From Gammaproteobacteria bacterium (lineage in GTDB: Bacteria; Pseudomonadota; Gammaproteobacteria; DRLM01): 36,005 nucleotides of DNA. The stretch's first letter is position 1. Each line of letters starts with the position of its first letter. The notes below the pieces were generated by a model that did not search any database, was not told where the DNA came from, and saw only the letters and a program-made list of their open reading frames with translations. The position numbers and the translations under genes are program-made. The stretch covers positions 1 to 36,005 of the forward strand of contig JAHFRV010000033.1 in the NCBI GenBank assembly GCA_023266095.1, read 5' to 3'. This document shows positions 17,160 through 33,833 of this stretch, piece after piece.

Positions 17160-18119
17160 TCAGGGCCGCGTGCCACCGGGTTGACCCGCGGTCACGGACA
17201 GCGGATGAAACACCCTGACGATATAGGCGACGATGGCGTCGATGTCCTGATCCGGCAACACCTGCTTCCACGCTGACATGGGCGTACCCGGTACACCCTC
17301 GCGTATCGCCTCTTTGATTTGCGCTCGCCTCATACCCTTCATGGCCGCGGCATCAGTGAGGTCGCGGGGATGAGGTTCGAGAAAGCGTCCTATCCAATTG
17401 CGCCCCGTGCCGTCCGCCGCGTGACAAAAGGCGCAATTGGCCTGAAACAGTTGCGCGCCGCGCCGCTCCTGCGCCGTGGCCTTTTCCAGCCTGGGCGGCC
17501 GGTCGTGTCTGGCATAGGGAGTCGCCCCGCTCATTGCGTCGAGTTTTTTATCCGGCGCGGCGTCCGGGCGGTAACCGCCGCGCGGAAACGACACCGAACG
17601 CGGATCCCACACCACGCCTTCGTCGTTGACGCGCGCGCGGTCGTGACAACTGATGCAGCTCGACATGAATAAACGTTTGCCCGCCTGCTGGGCTGGGGTC
17701 AATTTTTCCCACGGTGTGTCCAAGGCGATCTCGCCCAAGGCGAAGGGAAAGGCCGCCGCGTAACGCCGATGATTAGGCCAGCCGTTTTCCACGGTGTGAT
17801 AGGCGGTGTTGATACCGCGCCGCAAAATGAACGTGGCGCGGACAAACTCCACTACGGCCACAATGTCTTCCTCGCTCAACAGCGTCGAGAAACTTTTCAT
17901 GGCCGTGCCGGAACGGCCGTCGCGCACGGCGGCGATCATTTTTTCCCGGCTCAGTTTGACGGGATCGCTCTTGGTGAAATCACGCGGCGGGGGCGACAGA
18001 TAGCTGGCGGCCAAAGTCTTGGCGTCGCCGTTGTAACCGTGACAGAAATAACAGCGCTCGTTATAAACCTGCTTGCCGCGGGCGATCCGCGCGGTGCCGG
18101 CGCCTAGGGCACGTTCAGT
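17160..18119 (-). CDS. Multiheme cytochrome c, C-terminal half, no start codon of its own
   Basis: 319 codons carrying three heme motifs: CYFCH, CISCH and CAFCH. The frame is open back to the A9 run at 18119-18127, but it has no ATG, GTG or TTG before the first heme motif; the first possible start (TTG 18014) would remove CYFCH. There is no signal peptide. It continues the domain pattern of the preceding cytochrome: heme motif, PPRDFT, LSRE, a GTAM-type Met ligand, then an amphipathic helix (VVEFVRATFI). It is therefore the out-of-frame second half of one larger tandem cytochrome of about 660 residues and six hemes. It is produced by -1 slippage, split by a mutation, or separated by a sequencing error. 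Confidence 0.8.
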   Translation of the reverse strand, partial: TERALGAGTARIARGKQVYNERCYFCHGYNGDAKTLAASYLSPPPRDFTKSDPVKLSREKMIAAVRDGRSGTAMKSFSTLLSEEDIVAVVEFVRATFILRRGINTAYHTVENGWPNHRRYAAAFPFALGEIALDTPWEKLTPAQQAGKRLFMSSCISCHDRARVNDEGVVWDPRSVSFPRGGYRPDAAPDKKLDAMSGATPYARHDRPPRLEKATAQERRGAQLFQANCAFCHAADGTGRNWIGRFLEPHPRDLTDAAAMKGMRRAQIKEAIREGVPGTPMSAWKQVLPDQDIDAIVAYIVRVFHPLSVTAGQPGGTRP

Positions 18120-19144
18120 TTTTTTTTATCCGCCTGGGGCGCGGCGGCGGGGTACACGAAGGCGGTGAACACGTATTCCGCCACATTGGCGATTTCCTGC
18201 TCGCTGAGCACCTTACCCCAGGCCGGCATCACCGTGCCGCGCAGACCGTCGCGCACCGCACTAAACAGGGCGGGCCGGTTCAGCCGCGCCCGCGCATCGG
18301 TTTCGAGAAAATTACGCGGCTTGGGATTGATGAATTTAGAGCGCGGCCCTTTGCCGTCACCTTGCTTGCCGTGGCAGGTGAAGCAATTGTGCTCATAAAA
18401 TTCCTGGCCCCAACCGGTGTTGCCGCGCAAACCGTTGGGAAACGGCTGCGCCATATCGGCTTTGACCTGCTGCGCATGCTCGGGCGGGAGGGCGGATTCT
18501 TTCAAAAAGAAAGTGGCGCGCACATAGTCCACCACCGTCTCTATTTCACCGGCAGAGAGCCGTTTGCTGAACGACATCATCGCCGTGCCGGGCCGGCCAA
18601 AGGTCACCGAGGTGATCATGCGCTCGCGGCTCAATTCCTCCCGGGTCGCCGGCGAGGTGAAATCCCGCGGCGCCGGATTGAGACTGGACTGGGTCCACAT
18701 CGCGCCGCTGCCTTTGTCACCGTGGCACACCGCGCAATTGCGCACGTACAGCTGCTCCCCCAACACCAGTTTGGCGGGACGCGCCTCAGCCTTGCCGGCG
18801 CGGTCACTCATGAAGCTGGCGCGAATGTGATCGGCCACCGCGGTGATCTCCTCCTCCGACAGCCGCTGGCTGAAGCCCACCATAGCGGTGCCGGGCCGGC
18901 CGTGGGTGATCGAATTGATCATGCGTTCGCGGCTCAACTCCTGACGGGCTCGCGCGGTAGTAAAGTCGCGCGGCGGCGTGGTCAAACCCCGCCGCACACG
19001 GGTGTTGCCGTCGCCTTGATCACCGTGGCAGACCTGACAATGTTCGACATACAACGCCGCGCCGTCCACCGCCGCGAAGGCGGGGATGGCGATCAGCGCA
19101 GTCAAGGCTGTCAGGACGGCGAGGGCCGCGGCGTGCATATTCAT
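18104..19144 (-). CDS. Periplasmic multiheme cytochrome c, N-terminal half
   Basis: 346 residues. A signal peptide of about 24 (ending PAFA-AV) precedes three tandem cytochrome c domains with heme motifs at residues 36-40 (CQVCH), 137-141 (CAVCH) and 254-258 (CFTCH). Each unit repeats PxPRDFT or a variant, LSRERMI, a GTAM/GTVM segment with the likely axial Met, and a helix such as ADHIRASFM. The first two units are most alike, indicating internal duplication. Electron transfer in the periplasm is the expected role; the partner is unknown. The frame ends KKKLNVP just after a run of nine A. Read one base back, the message continues into the next cytochrome half, which lacks a start. Confidence 0.9.
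   Translation of the reverse strand: MNMHAAALAVLTALTALIAIPAFAAVDGAALYVEHCQVCHGDQGDGNTRVRRGLTTPPRDFTTARARQELSRERMINSITHGRPGTAMVGFSQRLSEEEITAVADHIRASFMSDRAGKAEARPAKLVLGEQLYVRNCAVCHGDKGSGAMWTQSSLNPAPRDFTSPATREELSRERMITSVTFGRPGTAMMSFSKRLSAGEIETVVDYVRATFFLKESALPPEHAQQVKADMAQPFPNGLRGNTGWGQEFYEHNCFTCHGKQGDGKGPRSKFINPKPRNFLETDARARLNRPALFSAVRDGLRGTVMPAWGKVLSEQEIANVAEYVFTAFVYPAAAPQADKKKLNVP
18119..18127 (-). other. A9 slippery run at the junction of two cytochrome frames
   Basis: On the minus strand the codons GAT AAA AAA AAA CTG contain the heptamer A AAA AAA in the phase needed for -1 frameshifting. The zero frame stops five codons after the run. The -1 frame continues for about 320 codons through three more heme motifs. 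One extra A would also fuse the two frames. Confidence 0.75.
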
Positions 19145-19344: not shown

Positions 19345-20136
19345 GTGACATACCCAGCACAGCACAGCGCGCCGGCGCGTTCAGAGCACCACATCCCGTC
19401 ACCCAGGCGTTTCGTGGTCGCCGCAGGCCTCATCGCCGTCCTATTACTCGGCGACTACGCCTTGGCCGGCACCTTGCTAGGCACTAAGCACGACTTCACC
19501 GGACTCAACCAGCGCGCTGGCGTAGTAGCCATGCCCGGGGTAGCCTTCTCTGATTACGGCAATTCCTGCGTCTATTGCCATCTGCCTCCGGAACGGCCCG
19601 AACAGGACAGCGCCGGGCAAGGCGGCAATCCGGGCTGGAACCGCTTCGTGCCCGCCACCGGCGCTTACGACACTTATGATACCCGCACCCTCGACAACAA
19701 AGTGCGCACTCCCAGCCCCATCAGTTTGCTATGCCTGTCCTGTCACGACGGCACCATGGGCGTGGACATGACAGTGTTCAAACCCGACGGCTGGCAGAGC
19801 AGCAAAGACGCGGCCCTGCATCTGCGCCTCAACGGCGCCGACGACTTGATGAGCTGCGGCAAATGCCACAACGGCCGGGTGGCGCACAGCATCGCCATCA
19901 AACACATCGGCACCGATCTCACCAACGATCACGCGATTTCTATGACTTATGCCGGGCTCAACAACAACGATCAAGACTTCCGCACACCCGACAGTCCCTA
20001 CGGCTTCGACAACGGCATCAAGCTCTATGACGGCAAAGTGGAATGCGCCACCTGCCACAACGTCCACGATCCCGACGTGAAGTTACTACTGCGCACCCGC
20101 GCCGATCGCCTGTGTGAAACATGCCATATCAAATAA
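19345..20136 (+). CDS. Pentaheme cytochrome c
   Basis: 263 residues from GTG 19345, with GGAAAGG about ten bases upstream. An N-terminal hydrophobic segment at 23-42 (FVVAAGLIAVLLLGDYALAG) acts as a signal peptide or anchor. Five CXXCH motifs follow at residues 75-79, 130-134, 171-175, 234-238 and 257-261. The last two (ECATCHNVHD, LCETCHIK) form the doubled-CXXCH arrangement common in cytochrome c3/c7-like and NrfB-like electron carriers. Several isolated histidines (H181, H187, H196, H241) could be distal ligands. It overlaps the NHL lipoprotein gene by 16 bases, so the two are translationally coupled, and it is divergent from the six-heme cytochrome. The likely role is periplasmic or outer-surface electron transfer. 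Confidence 0.9.
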   Translation: MTYPAQHSAPARSEHHIPSPRRFVVAAGLIAVLLLGDYALAGTLLGTKHDFTGLNQRAGVVAMPGVAFSDYGNSCVYCHLPPERPEQDSAGQGGNPGWNRFVPATGAYDTYDTRTLDNKVRTPSPISLLCLSCHDGTMGVDMTVFKPDGWQSSKDAALHLRLNGADDLMSCGKCHNGRVAHSIAIKHIGTDLTNDHAISMTYAGLNNNDQDFRTPDSPYGFDNGIKLYDGKVECATCHNVHDPDVKLLLRTRADRLCETCHIK

Positions 20137-21212
20137 AGCCGGCCCTGCTCGCGTTATGCGTGCTGGGCCTATTGGCCGGCTGCGCCAGCACCCCACCCGC
20201 CCCCCGGCTTGAGCCGCCGGTTTATCCGCCGGCGCCCGACGTGGCGCGTTTCATCTACGAACGCACTCTGCGCATCAATGAAGATGTCGAGCAACTCAGC
20301 GGCTTCGCCCGCTGGCGCGAACTGGCCACCGGCCGCGGCGAGGATGTCAAAGGCCTGGTCAAACCCTATGGCGTCGCCGCCCGCGGCGGACGGGTCTATG
20401 TCACCGACACCGCCCAGCGGGCGGTGTTGTTGTTCGACATCGCTGGCAAACGTTTCCTCCAGTTCGGTCAAACCGAGCCGGGGCGGTTGCAAAAACCCAT
20501 CGGCATCGCCTTGTCGCCCGATAACGAAGTCTACGTCGCCGACGTCAGCGCGCGGCGGGTGCAGGTCTACGGCACGGACGGCAAACACCACCGCACCCTC
20601 GGCAGTGACGCCGAATTGCGCCGGCCCTCGGGGGTCGCCCTCAGTCCGGACGGCCAACGTCTTTATGTGGTGGATGTGGGCGGGGTGGATAGCGAGCAAC
20701 ATCACGTACAGGTGTTCGATCCGCGCAGCGGGGCCTTGCTGCAAACCATCGGCGCGCGCGGCACCGGCGACGGCCAATTCAATTTGCCGGTGCAGGCCGC
20801 CACCGCCCCGGACGGCAGTCTCTACGTGGTGGACGGCGGCAATTTCCGGGTACAAGCTTTCGCGCCGGACGGCAGCTTCCGTCTCGCCTTCGGCGAGGTG
20901 GGGCGTTTTCCCGGCCAATTCGCCCGACCCAAGGGCATCGCCACCGATGGTGAGGGCACCGTTTACGTGGCCGACGCCGCGTTCGGCAACGTTCAGCTCT
21001 TCAACCCGCAAGGCCAAGTTCTGATGTACATCGGCAACCGGGACGACAGCAGCAAGCCGGGCAAGTTTTATCTGCCGGCCGGGGTCGCGGTGGATGAAAC
21101 GGGGCGGGTGTATTTAGCCGATCAATATTTTCGCAAAATCGACATCTTCCGGCCGGTGGGTCGCGCGCCGGACGATTGGACAAGTTCGGCACAGGCCGCG
21201 CCGGCGCCGTAA
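20121..21212 (+). CDS. NHL-repeat beta-propeller lipoprotein
   Basis: 363 residues. The signal peptide ends in the lipobox LLAGC (C21 lipidated), followed by a proline-rich linker. About six NHL repeats then run from residue 75 to 345. Each has the form KPYGVA...GRVYVTDTAQRAVLLFD or PIGIALSPDNEVYVADVSARR, closing with GVAVDETGRVYLADQYFRKI. NHL propellers bind protein or peptide partners, and in exported form they often accompany multiheme cytochromes. The start overlaps the end of the pentaheme cytochrome gene, which argues that the two work together, perhaps with the propeller docking the cytochrome at a membrane. No enzymatic motif is seen. Confidence 0.88.
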   Translation: MPYQIKPALLALCVLGLLAGCASTPPAPRLEPPVYPPAPDVARFIYERTLRINEDVEQLSGFARWRELATGRGEDVKGLVKPYGVAARGGRVYVTDTAQRAVLLFDIAGKRFLQFGQTEPGRLQKPIGIALSPDNEVYVADVSARRVQVYGTDGKHHRTLGSDAELRRPSGVALSPDGQRLYVVDVGGVDSEQHHVQVFDPRSGALLQTIGARGTGDGQFNLPVQAATAPDGSLYVVDGGNFRVQAFAPDGSFRLAFGEVGRFPGQFARPKGIATDGEGTVYVADAAFGNVQLFNPQGQVLMYIGNRDDSSKPGKFYLPAGVAVDETGRVYLADQYFRKIDIFRPVGRAPDDWTSSAQAAPAP

Positions 21213-24023: not shown

Positions 24024-25250
24024 CTATAAACCGTTAAGCCTGGCCACGCCACCAAAACTACCTACCCACACACTGCCGTCCTGGGCATGGGCCATGGAAA
24101 AGACATTATCCGCGAACAAGCCGTCACGGGTCGTCAGCACGGTAAAAGCCTTACCATCGTCATTGAGACGGGCCAACCCCCGGCTGGTGCCGGCCCACAG
24201 CCGGCCGTCCGGTCCCTTGTACAACATGAAGATGTGATTGGCGGGCAGGCCGTCCTGAGTGGTGAAGTTACGCCAGCTTTTTCCGTCGAAACGCGCCAGA
24301 CCGCCGCCCCAGGTACCGCACCACACCACCCCGTCGTCGGTCACCGCCAGGGAAATGATGTAATTGGGATTGTAGGCCACGTTGACGTCCTGCAATCCCT
24401 GTTCGACTTTTTGCTGGGCATGGTGCGACGAGGCCTGGCCGGGGTCACTGGTGAATTGGATGGCATCCTTGACCTGCTCGTAGGGCGCGCCTAAACCGTC
24501 GGCGTGTTGCCAATGTTGCCACTTGCCGTTCTGGTAGCGGGCCAAGCCATATTCGGTGGCGAACCACATCTCGCCGTTCTTGCCTTCATCCAGGGCATAG
24601 ACCCAAGGGTTGGGCAGGCCGCCTCCGGTGTTCTCGACGGTAAAGGTTTCCCATTGAGCGGGGTCTTCGAAGACCCCGCCGCGCACCCGGTTGGCGCCGG
24701 ACCAGGTGGCGATCCACACGTCGCCGTTACGCACTTGCTGGACGTCGTAGACAAACTGGTCGGCCAAACCGTCGGGAATATTGTAGTTGCGCCAAGTATC
24801 TTTGGCCGGATCGTATAGCGACAGGCCGCCACCGTAGGTGCCTACCACCATGCGCTGGCCGACCCGGCTGACGTGGAAGATTCCGTTGGATAGCAGGCCG
24901 TCCAGCTGATTGTCGAATAGCTTGTATTTATCCGCCGCGACATCGTAGCGGATCACCCCGCCCGAGGTGCCGATCCACACCACGCCGCCGTCGGCGTAAA
25001 TACTCTTCACATTGCGGTTGCCGACCCGAAAGTGGGCGAATTTACTATCACCGGCGGACCCGGCGGCGCCCGCCACCGCGGGGTGATTGGCCGGCAGGGC
25101 GCCAGCGGGCGCGGCAGGATTCTGCGACGCGGCCGCCGCATTGGCATTCAAACCGTCTGCATTGCGCTGGGTGCCGAATTGGTAGGCCGCCACCAGCGCA
25201 CCGCTCGCGGCAATCAAACCGATAGCGATACCTTGAAAACCGATCTTCAC
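24024..25250 (-). CDS. Membrane-anchored seven-bladed propeller protein (Reg_prop type)
   Basis: 408 residues. An N-terminal hydrophobic segment (IAIGLIAASGALVAAYQFG) is probably an uncleaved anchor, followed by an alanine-rich linker. Seven repeats with the core W-x-G-T-x-G-G-V follow: WIGTSGGV, VVGTYGGG, WIATWSGA, WFATEYGL, WCGTWGGG, WAGTSRGL and WVGSFGGV. This gives one complete seven-bladed propeller of the kind found in the sensor part of hybrid two-component regulators, but no kinase or DNA-binding domain is attached. Between blades four and five lies an extra loop with SSHHAQQKVEQG and then YNPNY. It overlaps the upstream paralogue by ATGA. Probably periplasmic; ligand unknown. Confidence 0.85.
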   Translation of the reverse strand: MKIGFQGIAIGLIAASGALVAAYQFGTQRNADGLNANAAAASQNPAAPAGALPANHPAVAGAAGSAGDSKFAHFRVGNRNVKSIYADGGVVWIGTSGGVIRYDVAADKYKLFDNQLDGLLSNGIFHVSRVGQRMVVGTYGGGLSLYDPAKDTWRNYNIPDGLADQFVYDVQQVRNGDVWIATWSGANRVRGGVFEDPAQWETFTVENTGGGLPNPWVYALDEGKNGEMWFATEYGLARYQNGKWQHWQHADGLGAPYEQVKDAIQFTSDPGQASSHHAQQKVEQGLQDVNVAYNPNYIISLAVTDDGVVWCGTWGGGLARFDGKSWRNFTTQDGLPANHIFMLYKGPDGRLWAGTSRGLARLNDDGKAFTVLTTRDGLFADNVFSMAHAQDGSVWVGSFGGVARLNGL

Positions 25251-26377
25251 TTTTTGCTCACCTCGTTAGCGCTGGCGGGACCGATGCGCGACACCCCTCG
25301 GCGGGTACCGACCCAGGCCTCACCATTCGGCGCCACCGCCACCGCGTAAACGCTGTCGGCGAACAAGCCGTCGCCGCGCCGCAAGGTCTGCCAGTTTTTA
25401 CCGTCGAAACGGGACACGCCCTGATTGGTACCGAACCACATCGCACCGTCCGGCGCCTGGGCGACACTGAAGACGATATTACCCGCCAAGCCGTCTTGCG
25501 TGGTGTAATTTTTCCAGACCTTGCCGTCGTAGCGACTAACCCCGCCGCCCCAGGTGCCGGCCCACACGGCATTGTCCGCCGCCACCTTTATCGAAAAGAC
25601 GTAATTGGGGTTATAACTGGGCTCGCCGTCCGCCAGCACACTCAAGTCATGCCGGGAGCGGGTGCCGAGGCCGGTATTCAGGCTGATAGGCAGATTGTCG
25701 GTGTTGGCCGCGCCCAAGCCGTCGGCATGGGTCCAGCTCCGCCATTGCTGACCGTCGAACATCGACACGCCGCCCTCGGTGCCGAACCATACCCGCTGTT
25801 GGGCGTCCACCGCAGCGCCGTAGACCCACTCATTGACCAGCTCTTTGACATAGGTGGTGAACTTGCCGCCCGCCACGTCCAGCCGGTTGACCCCGGCCCA
25901 GGTACCGATCCACACCGTGCCACCCGGCTGCTCGGCGAAAGAATACACCCAGTAATCGGCCAAGCCGTGCATGGGAAAATAGGTCTGCCACTGGCCGTCG
26001 CGGTAACGGGTCACCCCGCCGCCGTTGGTGCCGAACCATTTATTTCCCTGGCTATCCACCAGGATCGCGAACACATATTCATTGGCGAGACCTTCCTTGC
26101 GGGTGAAAGTCTGGCGCGGATCGCGGCTGGCCAAATCGACTTCATGCACCCCTACCGAAGTGCCGACCCACATACTCTTGGCGGCGGCATCGACAGCAAG
26201 AGAGCGGACGTAGACCTCGTCGCCCACCCCGAAGGATTCCAACACCTCGAACGGAGCGGCTTGGGCGAGGGCGGGTTTCGCCGCCAACTCGCCGTTTTTT
26301 TCCGAGGAACTGCAGCCGCCACTGAGCAATACGCTCAATAGGGCCAGTATCCACCGCCTGCCGAAACTGTTTTTCAC
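25247..26377 (-). CDS. Seven-bladed propeller lipoprotein (Reg_prop type)
   Basis: 376 residues. The signal peptide ends in a lipobox-like LSGGC (C22). Seven repeats follow: WVGTSVGV, WFGTNGGG, WIGTWAGV, WFGTEGGV, WAGTWGGG, WFGTNQGV and WVGTRRGV. It is paralogous to the next gene: both carry an insertion between blades four and five ending YNPNY, and blades five to seven align almost residue for residue (RYDGKVWKNYTTQDGLAGN against RFDGKSWRNFTTQDGLPAN). The pair arose by tandem duplication and then took on different membrane anchors. It overlaps the cytochrome gene upstream by four bases (ATGA). A redox-linked sensing or docking role is inferred from context only. Confidence 0.87.
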   Translation of the reverse strand: MKNSFGRRWILALLSVLLSGGCSSSEKNGELAAKPALAQAAPFEVLESFGVGDEVYVRSLAVDAAAKSMWVGTSVGVHEVDLASRDPRQTFTRKEGLANEYVFAILVDSQGNKWFGTNGGGVTRYRDGQWQTYFPMHGLADYWVYSFAEQPGGTVWIGTWAGVNRLDVAGGKFTTYVKELVNEWVYGAAVDAQQRVWFGTEGGVSMFDGQQWRSWTHADGLGAANTDNLPISLNTGLGTRSRHDLSVLADGEPSYNPNYVFSIKVAADNAVWAGTWGGGVSRYDGKVWKNYTTQDGLAGNIVFSVAQAPDGAMWFGTNQGVSRFDGKNWQTLRRGDGLFADSVYAVAVAPNGEAWVGTRRGVSRIGPASANEVSKK

Positions 26378-26706
26378 CGCAGCGTTCTTAAATGAGAAAT
26401 GACATCCAGGATGTCGTTTTCACTGAGCAAACCTTGATAAGCCGGCATCATGCCTTTGCCGCGGGAAATGGCCTTGATCAAATCCAGGTCCGATTGCATC
26501 AGCCGCTCGCGGCGAGAGAAATCGGGCACGCCGGGCATGACCGGCGCGCCGTGCTGACCGTGACAATTCGCGCAATGCTGGTTATACAAGGCCGCGCCGT
26601 TCTTGGGATCCGCCGCCTGCGCGGCAGCGGCCCACCCACCGGCACACAAGGCCATCGCCACGGCCGTAATTGCCCTGCTGCGCGCATTGCGAAATAAGGT
26701 GTTCAT
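26374..26706 (-). CDS. Monoheme periplasmic cytochrome c
   Basis: 110 residues. A signal peptide ends at about residue 31 (AAAAQA-AD), followed by a class I cytochrome c fold. The heme motif is CANCH at 45-49, and the probable axial Met lies in GKGMMPAYQG near 88. The C-terminal helix ILDVISHLRTL is typical. ATG 26706 is chosen because GAGG lies nine bases upstream and the signal peptide starts correctly; a longer frame from 26814 has an implausible N-terminus. First of three tightly overlapping genes with the two propeller proteins, so it is probably their electron-transfer partner. Confidence 0.9.
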   Translation of the reverse strand: MNTLFRNARSRAITAVAMALCAGGWAAAAQAADPKNGAALYNQHCANCHGQHGAPVMPGVPDFSRRERLMQSDLDLIKAISRGKGMMPAYQGLLSENDILDVISHLRTLR

Positions 26707-26834
26707 TATTGTCATCCTCATGGTTATCGCCCTAGTGACGCCGCGGCGGTGCGGAATAGTAACAAGCGGCGCCAGAACTGAGAAGTTGCAATCACGCAAA
26801 GACGGCCACGGCACATCACTGCTTACCGCTTAAA

Positions 26835-27442: not shown

Positions 27443-28693
27443 TCAAGGTACAACCGAATCGATCACCACATTAATACCGCTGCTACCCACCTGCACGGCA
27501 TTGACCACGCCCTCCAGGTCGCCGGACTGCGGCATGGCGTTACCGCTCTTGGAGATACGGGCGCCCACCACGACTTCGGTGTAGCCGGACAACCGCGCCA
27601 TCGGCGTCACGGCCTGCGAATCGTTCAAGTTGAATTGCAGCGGCAAGTCCTTTACCTGCACCCGCACGATGGCCAGCGGCATACGCGGTCCTTGCACGGC
27701 GCGGGCGAACACGAACACGGTATCGGTGGGCGCGGCGCGTCCCGCCAATTCCGGTTTGAGGCGCACGGTACCTTGAATCTCGGCCTGCGCCGCCGGTGTG
27801 GCGGCCGCCGCGGTCCCGCCTTGTCCACCCTTGGCACGGGCCTCGGCGATATTATTGGTCATGGCCTGGGCCTCTTGCGAACCGGGCGGCAACTGCCCCA
27901 ACAAGTGTTCCCAATGACCGATGGCGGTATTGAAATCCCCACGATCGAAGGCCGAGGTACCTGCTAGCCACAAACCTTTTTGATTATTGGGATCGATGCT
28001 CAAGGCACGGGCGATCAACTCGGCGGGTTTGCCTTCCAGGGTTTCGCCGCTGGACATGGCCAGCACGTCGGCGTAATCCACCAGCAGATCCGGGTTATCG
28101 GGCTGCAAGGCCACCGCCTTCTCCAGCGCGGCCACCGCATCGCCGTAGCGCCCCAGGGCGCCGTAGGAACGACCCAACATCAGCCAGCCTTCGGTATCGT
28201 TGGGATTGGTTTCCATGCGTTCGGCCAGCTTCGCGACCATACCCTGAATCTGATCCATGGTGATCTCATGGCTGGGCTGCTCGCCGCCATTGCCGTTCAC
28301 CGCCACCGGTGCGATCTTTTCCGGCGAAATCGCATTCGGCGTGCCTTGAATAAGATAAATCAGCACTGCGAGCAAAGGCACGAACAAGGCCACGGCTATC
28401 GCCGCGCCGCGTCCCGCGCCTTTATCATCGATTACCGCTTGCGGCGCGGGCTGCTGCGCGACATCGTCCAATAAACGCCGCTCCAACTCTACACGGCCGT
28501 GCTCGAATTGTTCCTGGCTTACGGTGCCGGCATTGAGATCGGCTTCCAGTTCGGCGAGCTGATCTTTGTAAATTTCCAGATTGGAACGGTCGCGCTGCAC
28601 GCCTTTACGGCTGTGCTGGCGCCACAACGAAGGGACGATGAACAACAACGCCGCGGCAAGCAACAGCGCCGCGACCACGGAAAAAATCATCAT
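27443..28693 (-). CDS. ccmI: Cytochrome c maturation protein CcmI
   Basis: 416 residues. An N-terminal transmembrane segment (VVAALLLAAALLFIVPSLW) and a cytoplasmic leucine-zipper-like loop (IYKDQLAELEADLNAGTVS) precede a second transmembrane segment near residues 100-117 (VALFVPLLAVLIYLIQ). A periplasmic TPR region follows (WLMLGRSYGALGRYGDAVAA, ALSIDPNNQKGLWLAGTSAF). The C-terminal 110 residues form a beta-rich domain. CcmI holds apocytochrome c for the CcmFH ligase. The overlap with ccmH is ATGA. It closes the ccm run; a gap of 44 bases separates it from the TlpA-like gene. Confidence 0.93.
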   Translation of the reverse strand: MMIFSVVAALLLAAALLFIVPSLWRQHSRKGVQRDRSNLEIYKDQLAELEADLNAGTVSQEQFEHGRVELERRLLDDVAQQPAPQAVIDDKGAGRGAAIAVALFVPLLAVLIYLIQGTPNAISPEKIAPVAVNGNGGEQPSHEITMDQIQGMVAKLAERMETNPNDTEGWLMLGRSYGALGRYGDAVAALEKAVALQPDNPDLLVDYADVLAMSSGETLEGKPAELIARALSIDPNNQKGLWLAGTSAFDRGDFNTAIGHWEHLLGQLPPGSQEAQAMTNNIAEARAKGGQGGTAAAATPAAQAEIQGTVRLKPELAGRAAPTDTVFVFARAVQGPRMPLAIVRVQVKDLPLQFNLNDSQAVTPMARLSGYTEVVVGARISKSGNAMPQSGDLEGVVNAVQVGSSGINVVIDSVVP

Positions 28694-29166
28694 GCGTGTT
28701 TATCCCCTGACTCTTTATTCAACAGGCTGTGCACCCGTGTCAATTCTTCCGGCGACAAGCTGGCCTCGGTCACGGTCTTGCGGCGCCGCTTGAGGTTGAA
28801 GAACAACACCCCCGCGCCCAGCACGAACAATACCAGCGGACCTAACCACACCAGGGTCGTGACGCCGGAGAAGGGAGGCTTATACAAAATGAACTCGCCA
28901 TAACGGTCGACCAGAAATTCCTTCACTTCCTGATCGCTCATCCCTTGATTCATGAGCGCCATGATCTTATTGCGCATATCGATGGCAAAATCGGAGTGGG
29001 AGTCGGCCAAGGACTGACCTTGACAGACCAGACAGCGCAATTCCCCGGAGAGCTTCATCACCCGCTCTTGCATGACCGCATCGCCCATTACCGGTGCGGC
29101 TTCTTTCGCCACGCAGGCCAGGGTGCCGCTGACCAGCAGCAGCCAAACCAATATCAGCCGCTTCAT
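28690..29166 (-). CDS. ccmH: Cytochrome c maturation protein CcmH
   Basis: 158 residues. A signal peptide is followed by the periplasmic LRCLVCQ motif (C45 and C48), the thiol pair that resolves disulfides on apocytochrome c. A C-terminal transmembrane segment (TTLVWLGPLVLFVLGAGVLFF) anchors the short basic tail. It is the short form of CcmH; the TPR part is in the separate CcmI, as in most non-enteric proteobacteria. Overlaps both neighbours by four bases. Confidence 0.95.
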   Translation of the reverse strand: MKRLILVWLLLVSGTLACVAKEAAPVMGDAVMQERVMKLSGELRCLVCQGQSLADSHSDFAIDMRNKIMALMNQGMSDQEVKEFLVDRYGEFILYKPPFSGVTTLVWLGPLVLFVLGAGVLFFNLKRRRKTVTEASLSPEELTRVHSLLNKESGDKHA

Positions 29167-29687
29167 CCTTTGAGCTTCCTTACAATGGGGAGAATTTCAT
29201 CGGTCAAGACTTCCGGAGTAATGGGACCGATGTGTTTGTGGCGGATCACGCCTTCGCGATCGATCACATAAGTCTCCGGTACGCCGTAGACACCGTAATC
29301 GATACCCACTTGCCCGGCGTGATCATAGGCGCTCGCCACATAGGGATTGCCGAACTGCTGCAACCAGCGCACGCCGTCTTCCCGCGCGTCTTTGTAATTG
29401 AGACCGTAAATGGGCACTTCGCCGGTTCGGGCCAACTGCATTAATACCGGATGTTCCTGGCGACAGGACACGCACCACGAGGCCCACACATTGAACAACC
29501 ACACGTGGCCGCGCAACTCGGCGGGCGCGAAGGTTTTGTCCGGCTCATGCAATTGAGGCAGCGAAAACACCGGCGCCGGTTTGTCGAGTAACGGCGAGGG
29601 AATCTCGCTGGGTTTGAGTTTGAGCCCGATGTACAAAAACACCGCCAACAAAACAAATACTCCGAGCGGGACTAAAAAACGACCCAT
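29163..29687 (-). CDS. ccmG: Thiol:disulfide interchange protein CcmG (DsbE)
   Basis: 174 residues. One N-terminal transmembrane segment (PLGVFVLLAVFLYIGL) is followed by a periplasmic thioredoxin fold. The active site is W71-C72-V-S-C75, a variant of the usual WCxxC, and the acidic motif VGIDYGVYGVPETYVID contains the conserved cis-proline. CcmG keeps the heme-binding cysteines of apocytochromes reduced. Its last residues overlap the ccmH start. Confidence 0.95.
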   Translation of the reverse strand: MGRFLVPLGVFVLLAVFLYIGLKLKPSEIPSPLLDKPAPVFSLPQLHEPDKTFAPAELRGHVWLFNVWASWCVSCRQEHPVLMQLARTGEVPIYGLNYKDAREDGVRWLQQFGNPYVASAYDHAGQVGIDYGVYGVPETYVIDREGVIRHKHIGPITPEVLTDEILPIVRKLKG

Positions 29688-31747
29688 CAGGATTTCACCT
29701 CCGAACCGTGCAACATCCCGCCGGCCGGGGCCGGCACGTCGGAGACATTAGCTTCACCCTCACCCGCCTCGGCCATCTGGCGTTGCTTGCGTGCCAGGAC
29801 GCGGTAACGGCGATCGCTGATGGCCAGCAAACCACCCAAGGCCATCAAGCCGCAGCCGGTCCAAATCCAGCTGATCAACGGCTTGTAATAAACCCGGACA
29901 CTCCAAGCGCCGTTGCCCACCGGCTCGCCCAAGGCCACGAACAAGTGGCGGAAAAAGCCGCTGTCGATGGCCGCTTCCGTCATCGGGTTTTGTTGCACGC
30001 GATAAACGCGCTTCTCGGGATGGAGCTGCATGAGCGGCTTCTCACCTTTGAACACCGTGACCAGGCCGCGCTGAGCATCGTAGTTGGCGCCTTTGGCGTT
30101 GATCACGCCGTCGAAACGGAAGGTGTAACCTGACACCTCGATGGTGTCGCCGATCTCCATGCGCACGTCCTTCCCTTCCTCGTAACCGCTCACCCCCATC
30201 ACGCCGAGAATGAACACCGCCACGCCGAAATGCGCCAGCTGCATGCCGAGATAACTGGTGGGCAGATTCACCAGACGCACCGGCCACGGCTTATCGCCGG
30301 GGGTCCGACTCAAGCGGTCACGCAAACTCATCACGACGGTGGCGACGATCCAGAACGCCATCAACGCGCCGAGACTGACCAGCCACGACCAGTGTCCCAT
30401 CACGAAAGGCGTGATGATGGCCATGATGACCGCGACCGCGGCGGCCCAACGTATCCGCCGTCCTAATTCAGGCACGGTGGCCCGCTTCCATTTGGCGACA
30501 GGTCCCACGCCCATCAAAAACACCACGGCGGTCATGATGGGAATAAATACGGCGTTGAAATACGGCGCGCCCACCGAGATCTTATTGGTCGGCGCGATGA
30601 TGCCGAGGGCCGCCATGGCGTCCACCACCAGCGGCGCCAAGGTGCCGATCAACACCGTGCCGGCGGCGACGACGAACAGCACGTTATTGGCCAGCAGCAT
30701 AGTCTCGCGCGACAGCACATCGAACCGCCCGCCCAAACCGACCTTGGGCGCGCGCCACGCGAACAGCGCCAGCGAACCCCCGACCACCGTCACCAGAAAC
30801 ACCAAAATGAATAGGCCGCGTTCGGGATCGCTGGCGAAGGAGTGCACCGAGGTCAGCACGCCGGAACGGACGAGGAAGGTGCCGAGCAGGCTCAGCGAAA
30901 ACGCCGTGATGGCGAGCAACACGGTCCAGCTTTTGAAGCTGCCGCGTTTTTCAGTGACGGCGAGCGAATGGATCAGCGCCGTGCCCACCAGCCAAGGCAT
31001 GAACGAGGCGTTCTCCACAGGATCCCAAAACCACCAGCCACCCCAGCCCAGTTCGTAATAAGCCCACCAGCTGCCGAGGGCGATGCCGCAGGTCAGGAAC
31101 ATCCAGGCCACCGTGGTCCACGGCCGCGACCAGCGCGCCCAAGTGGCGTCGAGCTTGCCACCCAACAGCGCGGCGATGGCAAAGGCGAAGGCCACCGAGA
31201 AACCGACATAACCCATGTACAACATGGGCGGATGGATGATCAAACCGAAGTCTTGCAATAGTGGATTCAAATCCCGGCCGTCGAGTGCGGCGGGCAACAA
31301 ACGAGTGAAGGGATTGGAGGTAAACAAAGTGAAGGAAATGAAACCCACCGCCACCAGCCCCATCACGCCCAATACCCGGGCCGCCATTTCATCGGGCAAA
31401 TGACGGCTGAACACGCTGACCGCCAACATCCAGCCCGTGAGCATGAATATCCACAGCAGCAAGGACCCCTCATGACCACCCCACACCCCGGCGATGCGGT
31501 ATTGCAGCGGCAGCGCCGAATTGGACTGCGTCGCCACATACAGTACGGAGAAATCATTTTGAATAAAGGAATAGGTGAGACAGGCAAAAGCGATGGCGAT
31601 AAAGACGAACATGCCTTGTGCCAGCGGCCGAGCGAGAGCCATCCAGCGCGGTATTCCCCGTGCGGCGCCGATGATCGGCAAGCTGCCCTGCACCAAAGCC
31701 ATGCACAAAGCGATAATCAGCGCGATATGTCCAATCTCTGGCACCAT
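29687..31747 (-). CDS. ccmF: Heme lyase CcmF
   Basis: 686 residues with about 15 transmembrane segments. The tryptophan-rich WWD domain is at 234-253 (GWGGWWFWDPVENASFMPW), the heme-handling face of the synthetase. Conserved periplasmic histidines include H92 (GGHEGSLLLW), H172 and one in the C-terminal FFRHLFVALGEP. CcmF with CcmH joins heme from CcmE to CXXCH motifs. Length is typical (640-690). It shares one base with ccmG and one with ccmE, consistent with a single polycistronic message. Confidence 0.97.
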   Translation of the reverse strand: MVPEIGHIALIIALCMALVQGSLPIIGAARGIPRWMALARPLAQGMFVFIAIAFACLTYSFIQNDFSVLYVATQSNSALPLQYRIAGVWGGHEGSLLLWIFMLTGWMLAVSVFSRHLPDEMAARVLGVMGLVAVGFISFTLFTSNPFTRLLPAALDGRDLNPLLQDFGLIIHPPMLYMGYVGFSVAFAFAIAALLGGKLDATWARWSRPWTTVAWMFLTCGIALGSWWAYYELGWGGWWFWDPVENASFMPWLVGTALIHSLAVTEKRGSFKSWTVLLAITAFSLSLLGTFLVRSGVLTSVHSFASDPERGLFILVFLVTVVGGSLALFAWRAPKVGLGGRFDVLSRETMLLANNVLFVVAAGTVLIGTLAPLVVDAMAALGIIAPTNKISVGAPYFNAVFIPIMTAVVFLMGVGPVAKWKRATVPELGRRIRWAAAVAVIMAIITPFVMGHWSWLVSLGALMAFWIVATVVMSLRDRLSRTPGDKPWPVRLVNLPTSYLGMQLAHFGVAVFILGVMGVSGYEEGKDVRMEIGDTIEVSGYTFRFDGVINAKGANYDAQRGLVTVFKGEKPLMQLHPEKRVYRVQQNPMTEAAIDSGFFRHLFVALGEPVGNGAWSVRVYYKPLISWIWTGCGLMALGGLLAISDRRYRVLARKQRQMAEAGEGEANVSDVPAPAGGMLHGSEVKS

Positions 31748-32223
31748 CAGATGTCCCTCCCCCCGTTCGTATTGATAGGCGCCGTGGCGGCCGGCTGATC
31801 TTTTTTCGCCTGTTCCAAAGCCTTGGCCACTTCCGGCGGCATATAGGTCTCGTCGTGCTTGGCCAGCACTTCGTCCGCCATGAACACCCCATCATTGCTG
31901 ATCTTGCCCAAGGCGACCGCGCCTTGGCCTTCTTTGAACAGATCAGGCAATATCCCCTTGAAAATCACATTGACGTTTTCGGCACGGTCGGTCAGCACGA
32001 AGCTCACGGTGAGACCGTCATTGCCGCGCTTGACGCTGCCCTCTTCCACCAAACCGCCCAGCCGAAAAGTACGCTCTTTAGGCGCGGCGCCCGCTACTAA
32101 CTCGCTGGGGCTGTAAAACAATTGCAGATTGCTCTTCAAGGCATTGAGCACCAAGGCCGCCGCCACGCCCAGTCCCGCCAACCCCACCAGAATAAATGCC
32201 AGCCGCTTATGTCTGGGCTTCAT
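31747..32223 (-). CDS. ccmE: Heme chaperone CcmE
   Basis: 158 residues. One N-terminal transmembrane segment (LAFILVGLAGLGVAAALVL) is followed by a periplasmic OB-fold beta barrel (RLGGLVEEGSVKRG, VSFVLTDRAENVNVIFKGIL). H123 in LAKHDETYM is the residue that binds heme covalently, and Y127 completes the HxxxY motif. CcmE carries heme from CcmC to CcmF. The C-terminal tail is flexible and proline/alanine rich. Confidence 0.96.
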   Translation of the reverse strand: MKPRHKRLAFILVGLAGLGVAAALVLNALKSNLQLFYSPSELVAGAAPKERTFRLGGLVEEGSVKRGNDGLTVSFVLTDRAENVNVIFKGILPDLFKEGQGAVALGKISNDGVFMADEVLAKHDETYMPPEVAKALEQAKKDQPAATAPINTNGGRDI

Positions 32224-32405
32224 TATTGCTTCACCTCCGCTTGCATCCGCATTCTACGACCCAAGCGTTGAACGATAGTTCGCTTACGGTGCACGACCAT
32301 GACCACCTCCACCAGCAAAAACAAGGCGGTGACCCCAAAGGAACCCCATACGTAAAAGGCGTAGCCGCCCATGGCGAAGAACTCGCCCGCACTGCCCCAG
32401 TTCAT
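32223..32405 (-). CDS. ccmD: Heme exporter protein CcmD
   Basis: 60 residues: a small single-pass membrane protein starting MNWGSAGEFFAMGGYAFYVW, with a hydrophobic helix (GVTALFLLVEVVMVV) and a strongly basic cytoplasmic tail (HRKRTIVQRLGRRMRMQ). This is the standard CcmD layout. The start at ATG 32405 overlaps the ccmC stop by four bases; a longer frame upstream only covers ccmC. CcmD assists release of holo-CcmE from CcmABC. Confidence 0.93.
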   Translation of the reverse strand: MNWGSAGEFFAMGGYAFYVWGSFGVTALFLLVEVVMVVHRKRTIVQRLGRRMRMQAEVKQ

Positions 32406-33172
32406 GGTGATTTGCTCAACTCCGTCGCCACCCACTCGGTATCGCGCTCCGCTTCCAAAATCTCGCAACGCACCCGCGCCAGCACCACCGCGATGGTGTA
32501 CATCCACATCGCCAAGCTCATCATCAGCATGGCGGTCAACATGGTGGTCTCCATCGATGTGCCGCTGCTCTTGATGGTGGCGCCTTGATGCAAAGTGTTC
32601 CACCATTCCACCGATTTATAAATGATGGGAACATTGATCACACCGATGATGGCCAGCAAACCGCTGGCGCGCGCGGCGCGGCGGGGATCGTCGATGGCCG
32701 CCTTCAGCGACATGAAGCCGATGTATAAAAATAGCAGGATCAATTCCGAAGTGAGCCGCGCGTCCCACACCCACCAGGCACCCCACATCGGCTTGCCCCA
32801 CAGCGCGCCGGTCCACAAGGCGAGGAAGGTGAACAGGGCACCGGTGGGCGCCAGCGCCGTAGCCATCAGGGATGACAACCGGGTATTGAATACCAGCCCC
32901 ATCCCGGCATAGGCCGCCATCACCACATAAATGAACATGGACATCCACGCAGCGGGGACGTGGATAAAGATGATCCGATAACCCTCGCCCTGCTTGTAAT
33001 CGGTGGGGGCGACGAAAAACCCCAGATATAAACCGATGACCGTCAACACCACGGCCAGTACCGCGAAATAGGGGATGAGCTTGCCGGCCAGCGGATAAAA
33101 TGTTGCCGGCGAAGAAAACTTAAACCAATTGATCTGCCGCACTGCCACCAAACCACCCTGCCCTTTATTCAA
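32402..33172 (-). CDS. ccmC: Heme exporter protein CcmC
   Basis: 256 residues with six transmembrane segments. The WWD motif is at 130-144 (WGAWWVWDARLTSEL). The axial histidines are H71 in FIHVPAAW and one in WWNTLHQGATI. CcmC loads heme onto CcmE in the periplasm. It overlaps ccmB by eight bases and ccmD by four. Confidence 0.97.
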   Translation of the reverse strand: MNKGQGGLVAVRQINWFKFSSPATFYPLAGKLIPYFAVLAVVLTVIGLYLGFFVAPTDYKQGEGYRIIFIHVPAAWMSMFIYVVMAAYAGMGLVFNTRLSSLMATALAPTGALFTFLALWTGALWGKPMWGAWWVWDARLTSELILLFLYIGFMSLKAAIDDPRRAARASGLLAIIGVINVPIIYKSVEWWNTLHQGATIKSSGTSMETTMLTAMLMMSLAMWMYTIAVVLARVRCEILEAERDTEWVATELSKSP

Positions 33173-33833
33173 GTGATATCCGCAAGGCCCAACCGGCGGC
33201 CCACGGTGCGAACACCAGCGCCGGCACCAAGAACGCGCCCAACAATGACAAATGCGCCTGCGGTCCCAATCCCGTCACCTGCGCGTCCACCGCCCCCGCG
33301 CCGAAGATCAGCACCGGGATGTAGAGCGGCAACACCAGCAATGAGACCAGCACCCCGCCCCCGCGCAGACCCAGGGTAAGCGCCGCGCCCACCGCGCCGA
33401 TCAGGCTCAGCACCGGGGTGCCCAAAATCAGCGACAGCACCAGCACCCATAACGCATCCGCCGACAGACCGTACTGTATCCCCAGCAACGGCGCGATCAG
33501 CACCAAGGGCAAGCCGCTCACCAGCCAGTGGGTCACGATCTTGCCCAACACCAGCACCGTCAGCGGCTGCGGCGCCAACACCAAGTGCTCCAAGGTGCCG
33601 TCGATGTAATCACCGGAAAACAAGCGCCCCAGCGATAACATGGATGCCAGCAGTGCCGCCACCCACACCACCCCCGGGCCCATCAGACGCAAGGTATCCA
33701 TCTCCGGGCCCACCCCGAGGGGGAACAGGCTCACCACGATCACGAAAAAAAACAAGGTGGTCAGCACATCGGCGCGCCGGCGCATGGCCAAGGTCAGGTC
33801 GCGCATCACCACGCATCGCAGGGCTGCCCACAT
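33165..33833 (-). CDS. ccmB: Heme exporter membrane subunit CcmB
   Basis: 222 residues, six transmembrane segments. The family signature PEMDTLRLMGPGVVWVAALL and the following GDYIDGTLEHLVLAP are clear. It pairs with CcmA as an ABC-type transporter that powers the release of heme-loaded CcmE. The gene begins 12 bases after the ccmA stop and overlaps ccmC by eight bases. Confidence 0.96.
   Translation of the reverse strand: MWAALRCVVMRDLTLAMRRRADVLTTLFFFVIVVSLFPLGVGPEMDTLRLMGPGVVWVAALLASMLSLGRLFSGDYIDGTLEHLVLAPQPLTVLVLGKIVTHWLVSGLPLVLIAPLLGIQYGLSADALWVLVLSLILGTPVLSLIGAVGAALTLGLRGGGVLVSLLVLPLYIPVLIFGAGAVDAQVTGLGPQAHLSLLGAFLVPALVFAPWAAGWALRISLE

Follow-up and report, generated by a model that had tools for sequence, protein, structure and literature searches.

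A multiheme cytochrome gene of this gammaproteobacterium is split by a run of nine A and, judging from its comparison with relatives, very probably undergoes a programmed and conserved frameshift that yields a three-heme protein and a six-heme fusion. The explanation of the whole that we favor, and regard as likely, is that of one gene on whose A9 run RNA polymerase would slip to give three-heme and six-heme exported products. The mechanism is of a known kind. What is unusual is that three solutions interchange within one family.

The gene lies in the window, by which we mean the whole stretch of 36,005 nucleotides that was analyzed, and has the following parts.

18104 to 19144, minus strand: N half, with a signal peptide and three class I cytochrome c domains (open reading frames, Pfam).
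18119 to 18127, minus strand: A9 slip site, AAA AAA AAA, phase 0 (direct reading of the sequence).
17160 to 18125, minus strand: C half, in the -1 frame, with three heme motifs (open reading frames, Pfam, dN/dS).

The N-half reading frame (19144-18104) encodes 346 residues from an ATG start, begins with the signal peptide MNMHAAALAVLTALTALIAIPAFA and contains three CxxCH motifs, at 19039, 18736 and 18385. As an earlier note on this DNA had described, the frame ends in KKKLNVP (ADKKKLNVP with the two residues before it) shortly after the A run, which comprises exactly nine bases (18127-18119, phase 0) and is followed 12 nt further on by the TAG stop (18106-18104). The run includes the heptamer A_AAA_AAA, in the phase that the note had given for a -1 shift. 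The -1 frame runs without a stop from 18125 to 17160 (321 residues) and has CxxCH motifs at 18053, 17657 and 17435. The note was also right that this second frame has no start before its first heme: no ATG, GTG or TTG lies ahead of it, the first mechanical start being TTG 18014, downstream of that heme, and the C half has no signal peptide in this genome. Both halves are built of class I cytochrome c repeats and match Pfam Cytochrome_CBB3, with E-values of 1e-40 over three stretches for the N half and 5e-33 for the C half. Read in silico with one extra A at the junction, the gene gives a six-heme protein of 661 residues, in agreement with the note's estimate of about 660, and ADKKKTERALG is the predicted sequence across the junction; with one A fewer, or two more, translation meets an immediate stop after KKN. 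For the C half, a structure was predicted (mean pLDDT 82.8) whose PDB matches are essentially single cytochrome domains, which gave no further hint of function.

The A9 at 18119-18127 is the sole A/T run of at least nine in the window and one of five A9 runs in the 3.33-Mb genome, and the split-frame pattern is seen at none of the other four. The 318 kb surrounding the orthologous A-run loci contain no further A/T run of at least nine.

We compared orthologues from 95 relatives, a collection of 84,980 species and 369 genomes of the class; once identical junctions had been removed, 97 loci having both halves were retained. A slip site is present in the overlap of 55 loci, whose C half has neither a start nor a signal peptide and lies in the -1 frame in all 55. 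The C half of the other 42 has its own start and a predicted signal peptide, called by a hydropathy rule rather than a dedicated predictor, and these loci have no slip site and mixed frames. No locus among the 97 has both a slip site and a C-half signal peptide, or neither of them, and the two are mutually exclusive (Fisher p 2e-28, kinship ignored). The slip-class genomes are mostly metagenome assemblies. An A8-A10 run is found in 50 of the 55 slip-site loci and an in-phase GGGAAAG in 7, with both in 2; by length, the runs are A9 in 41 loci, A10 in 7 and A8 in 2. When the three states are placed on the tree of the C half, 5 changes are needed, compared with 30.7 with shuffled labels. The pattern is thus inherited, yet it has switched several times.

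In none of the 97 non-identical loci are the halves fused in one frame. The earlier note had proposed slippage at the A9 run into three-heme and six-heme products, to be checked by the fused or split state of orthologues and their A runs, and the comparison gave the opposite of a uniform single frame with no run. It also bears on the note's caveat that a single-base assembly error or the real loss of one A would look the same. Taken by itself, this genome would indeed look no different if one base had been missed in sequencing or assembly, or recently deleted from an intact six-heme gene. Yet the split recurs, in the -1 frame and with a slip site, in genomes from many assemblies, one of them near-complete in two contigs (G245, L139), and a closely related congener, 88% identical, likewise has A9. 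The 97-locus comparison therefore rejects an error, and we treat its probability as negligible. Phase variation, in which mutation of the run length would toggle the six-heme form, had also been suggested, and a nine-base homopolymer is mutable in principle. However, runs of 8, 9 and 10 all occur and the C frame is -1 at every A-run length and phase, with an in-frame state never seen among the orthologous loci, and close relatives retain the same run. Phase variation was rejected on these grounds and is very improbable.

Selection was assessed against the nearest congener (L039), with dN/dS of 0.16 for the N half and 0.10 for the C half. On these ratios the C half is under purifying selection. 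The heme motifs are conserved in A1. Since the A run and the -1 direction are kept and dN/dS is low, the run, its direction and both proteins are maintained.

The halves are separate genes in 42 relatives, where N and C often overlap; Aromatoleum, Dechloromonas and Leptothrix are examples of relatives with the halves apart. One could imagine two independent genes at the slip-site loci as well, the second being read from an unusual start codon or by re-initiation. The slip-site loci, however, have no usable start or signal peptide before the first C heme, and from what is established for cytochrome c maturation an unexported C half cannot get c-type heme. A separate second gene was thus rejected for the slip class, and we consider it highly improbable. 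Taken together, the fused slip product and the separate genes suggest that the C half can work either fused or free. In one relative (L083, 4851-6901) N and C are two convergent separate genes, and C has an apparent lipoprotein-like signal.

Under the slippage reading, -1 was the direction named in the earlier note, and it stood in 55 of 55 loci; as for the machine, the ribosome is possible and RNA polymerase is the better guess, being the more probable of the two. Recoding in general is indicated by the conserved -1 transition at a slip-prone sequence and by selection on both frames. For transcriptional slippage in particular, the loci have a homopolymer of at least 8-9 A and nearby stops in both unproductive frames. 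The zero-frame stop follows the A run at a median of 8 nt, compared with 82 nt in controls, and the third-frame stop at 18 nt compared with 32 nt (p 0.0015; the loci are related, which makes the p values optimistic). In many bacteria it is from a run length of nine that selection against slippage can be seen (PMC1088944), and the shifting efficiency in published A9 cases is about 40-50% (PMC3711429, PMC5009743).

The same two products could arise by programmed -1 ribosomal frameshifting, with tandem tRNA-Lys slippage on A_AAA_AAA. This heptamer is in phase at nearly every A run, and a pattern search found only one tRNA-Lys, with a UUU anticodon. The phase of the A runs is mostly 0, whereas transcriptional slippage needs no phase; common descent could explain this. 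A ribosomal shift at the junction is also made plausible by a nested clade with GGGAAAG and an upstream SD-like sequence, described below. On the other hand, the ribosome could make do with seven A or A6G, whereas every run has at least 8 A and 48 of the 50 reach nine or more. The best ribosomal slippery heptamer in E. coli, A_AAA_AAG, is in phase at none of the A runs. At the A9 site the in-phase slippery heptamer is thus present, whereas the stimulators that are common, if not strictly required, for ribosomal -1 shifts are absent from the A runs: SD-like sequences do not exceed the control, and downstream stem-loops (mean z -0.54 compared with -0.15 in controls, p 0.07) are not common to the family. 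We regard ribosomal slippage on the A run as unlikely, though a serious alternative, and retain RNA polymerase as the preferred agent. Two loci, L046 and L019, have unusually stable predicted stem-loops just past the A run, with z of about -5 and -4.

The first junction scan, which covered 60 nt and A runs only, left five loci unexplained and led to the recognition of a second kind of site. These five loci have CCGGGAAAG in common, which holds an in-phase G_GGA_AAG heptamer, and a sixth locus, L070, which is cut off upstream, has the GGGAAAG sequence as well. This type of slip site is known from lambda gpG-T. In-phase GGGAAAG occurs at this junction in L016, L055, L070, L071, L075 and L085, and it accompanies an A run in L044 and L049. 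An SD-like sequence lies about 14 nt upstream of GGGAAAG in all six (GGAG, but GGGG in L085), and the anti-SD energy at these sites is -6.7 kcal/mol compared with -2.3 kcal/mol in controls (p 3e-4). A well-supported subclade holds the GGGAAAG loci, both loci with the two sites, and L061, which has an A run only. The sharing of one subclade by all three arrangements indicates that the -1 shift is kept while the device changes. This nested clade has probably exchanged the A run for GGGAAAG with an SD-like sequence, that is, for ribosomal frameshifting.

We propose that RNA polymerase slips on the nine-A run, so that some transcripts carry an extra A. Translation of unslipped mRNA would end at the stop just past the run and yield an exported periplasmic three-heme cytochrome. 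From mRNA with one extra A, translation would continue in the -1 frame to give the 661-residue six-heme cytochrome, exported by means of the same signal peptide. With neither a start nor a signal peptide of its own, the C half in slip-class genomes would depend on the slip as its sole route to synthesis and to the periplasm, and the slip would decide its export because c-type heme is attached in the periplasm. If the C half is made by the slip only, the N half should always be in excess of it.

Two divergent neighbors of the split gene touch on its possible role.

19345 to 20136, plus strand: OmcE-like multiheme cytochrome with five CxxCH, divergent (phmmer to PDB 7tfs, E 1.2e-13).
20121 to 21212, plus strand: NHL-repeat beta-propeller with a lipoprotein-like N terminus (Pfam NHL, 6e-31).

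The first of these matches the OmcE filament protein over nearly its full length, with conserved heme motifs and one extra CxxCH. Among 75 loci examined, the OmcE-like neighbor is conserved in 57 and the NHL beta-propeller in 49. These neighbors suggest a link to extracellular electron transfer, an exchange of electrons with the outside whose periplasmic part would be the triheme/hexaheme pair; the pair may move electrons to or from the OmcE-like outer-surface cytochrome. In its fullest form, our proposal is that electron-transfer bacteria use a deliberate slip in a periplasmic cytochrome to set how much three-heme shuttle is made relative to a six-heme wire for the OmcE-like surface cytochrome, and that one family holds three interchangeable solutions, namely slippage of RNA polymerase on A9, slippage of the ribosome on GGGAAAG and a second signal peptide, with intermediates that have both slip sites. 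We think this proposal as a whole is about equally likely to hold or to fail.

The Uet electron-uptake cluster of Tenderiales and Gallionella offers a comparison; as described in the accessible part of PMC10734462, it comprises the tetraheme UetA, the trihemes UetDEG, the NHL proteins UetHI and the undecaheme UetJ. In both, triheme cytochromes have NHL-repeat proteins and an extracellular multiheme cytochrome nearby. By contrast, UetDEG are described there as cytochrome c7-type, whereas the domains here are class I (Cytochrome_CBB3), and that part of the paper reports no frameshift in the cluster. Neither the undecaheme UetJ nor the porin UetC was seen in a general survey of the 5-kb flanks.

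Programmed slippage has its textbook cases in dnaX and prfB, and to our knowledge its conservation is rare in ordinary (non-mobile, non-viral) bacterial genes. In Thermus thermophilus dnaX (tau/gamma), transcriptional slippage takes place at nine A/T, with nearby stops in both unproductive frames (PMC5009743). The present gene resembles it in the A9 homopolymer, in giving a short and a long product of one gene and in the close stops. It differs in that only the slip can give the long form, which in Thermus is read in frame, and in that the product is an exported multiheme cytochrome and the slip also decides the export of the C half. With ribosomal frameshifting in E. coli dnaX and lambda gpG-T, the family shares the -1 direction and, in the GGGAAAG clade, a heptamer with an SD-like sequence. 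Unlike those systems, the A9 site has neither stimulators nor an in-phase A_AAA_AAG. The GeneTack clusters are conserved prokaryotic frameshifts, and in that work an A9 cassette gave about 40% shifting (PMC3711429); a conserved frame transition at poly-A is a trait they share with our loci. No cytochrome or heme family appears among these clusters in the main text (PMC3711429), and we found no report of programmed slippage in a bacterial cytochrome in the literature that could be searched.

The conserved slip proposed here is shared by dozens of members of one family, and the neighbors of this cytochrome point to extracellular electron transfer. Within the family one need is met by a separate signal peptide, by an A9 run, by GGGAAAG or by two slip sites together, a natural series that lets one trace in a single gene how recoding switches between polymerase and ribosome. 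As the C half has no start codon, standard annotation would truncate or miss it, and its first heme would be lost. It is likely that many genomes list their six-heme cytochromes as a three-heme protein plus a fragment.

Several further features were observed. A cluster for cytochrome c maturation (ccm), including CcmB, CcmE, CcmF, DsbE and CcmI, lies at 27443-33833 of the window, some 8 kb upstream of the split gene. Two adjacent reading frames with two-component-regulator propeller repeats (window 24024-26377) stand beside a small class I cytochrome (26374-26814). A 16-G run at the start of the contig (window 2-17) may have arisen as an artefact of sequencing or assembly at the contig end. 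Elsewhere in the genome, the gene of a YihA/EngB-like GTPase has an in-frame A9 close to the end that encodes the C terminus (L121, contig C43, around 30240), where slippage would change the tail only. More Paired_CXXCH matches on contig C47 of the same genome (7156-7257 and 17170-17265) suggest another multiheme cytochrome cluster.
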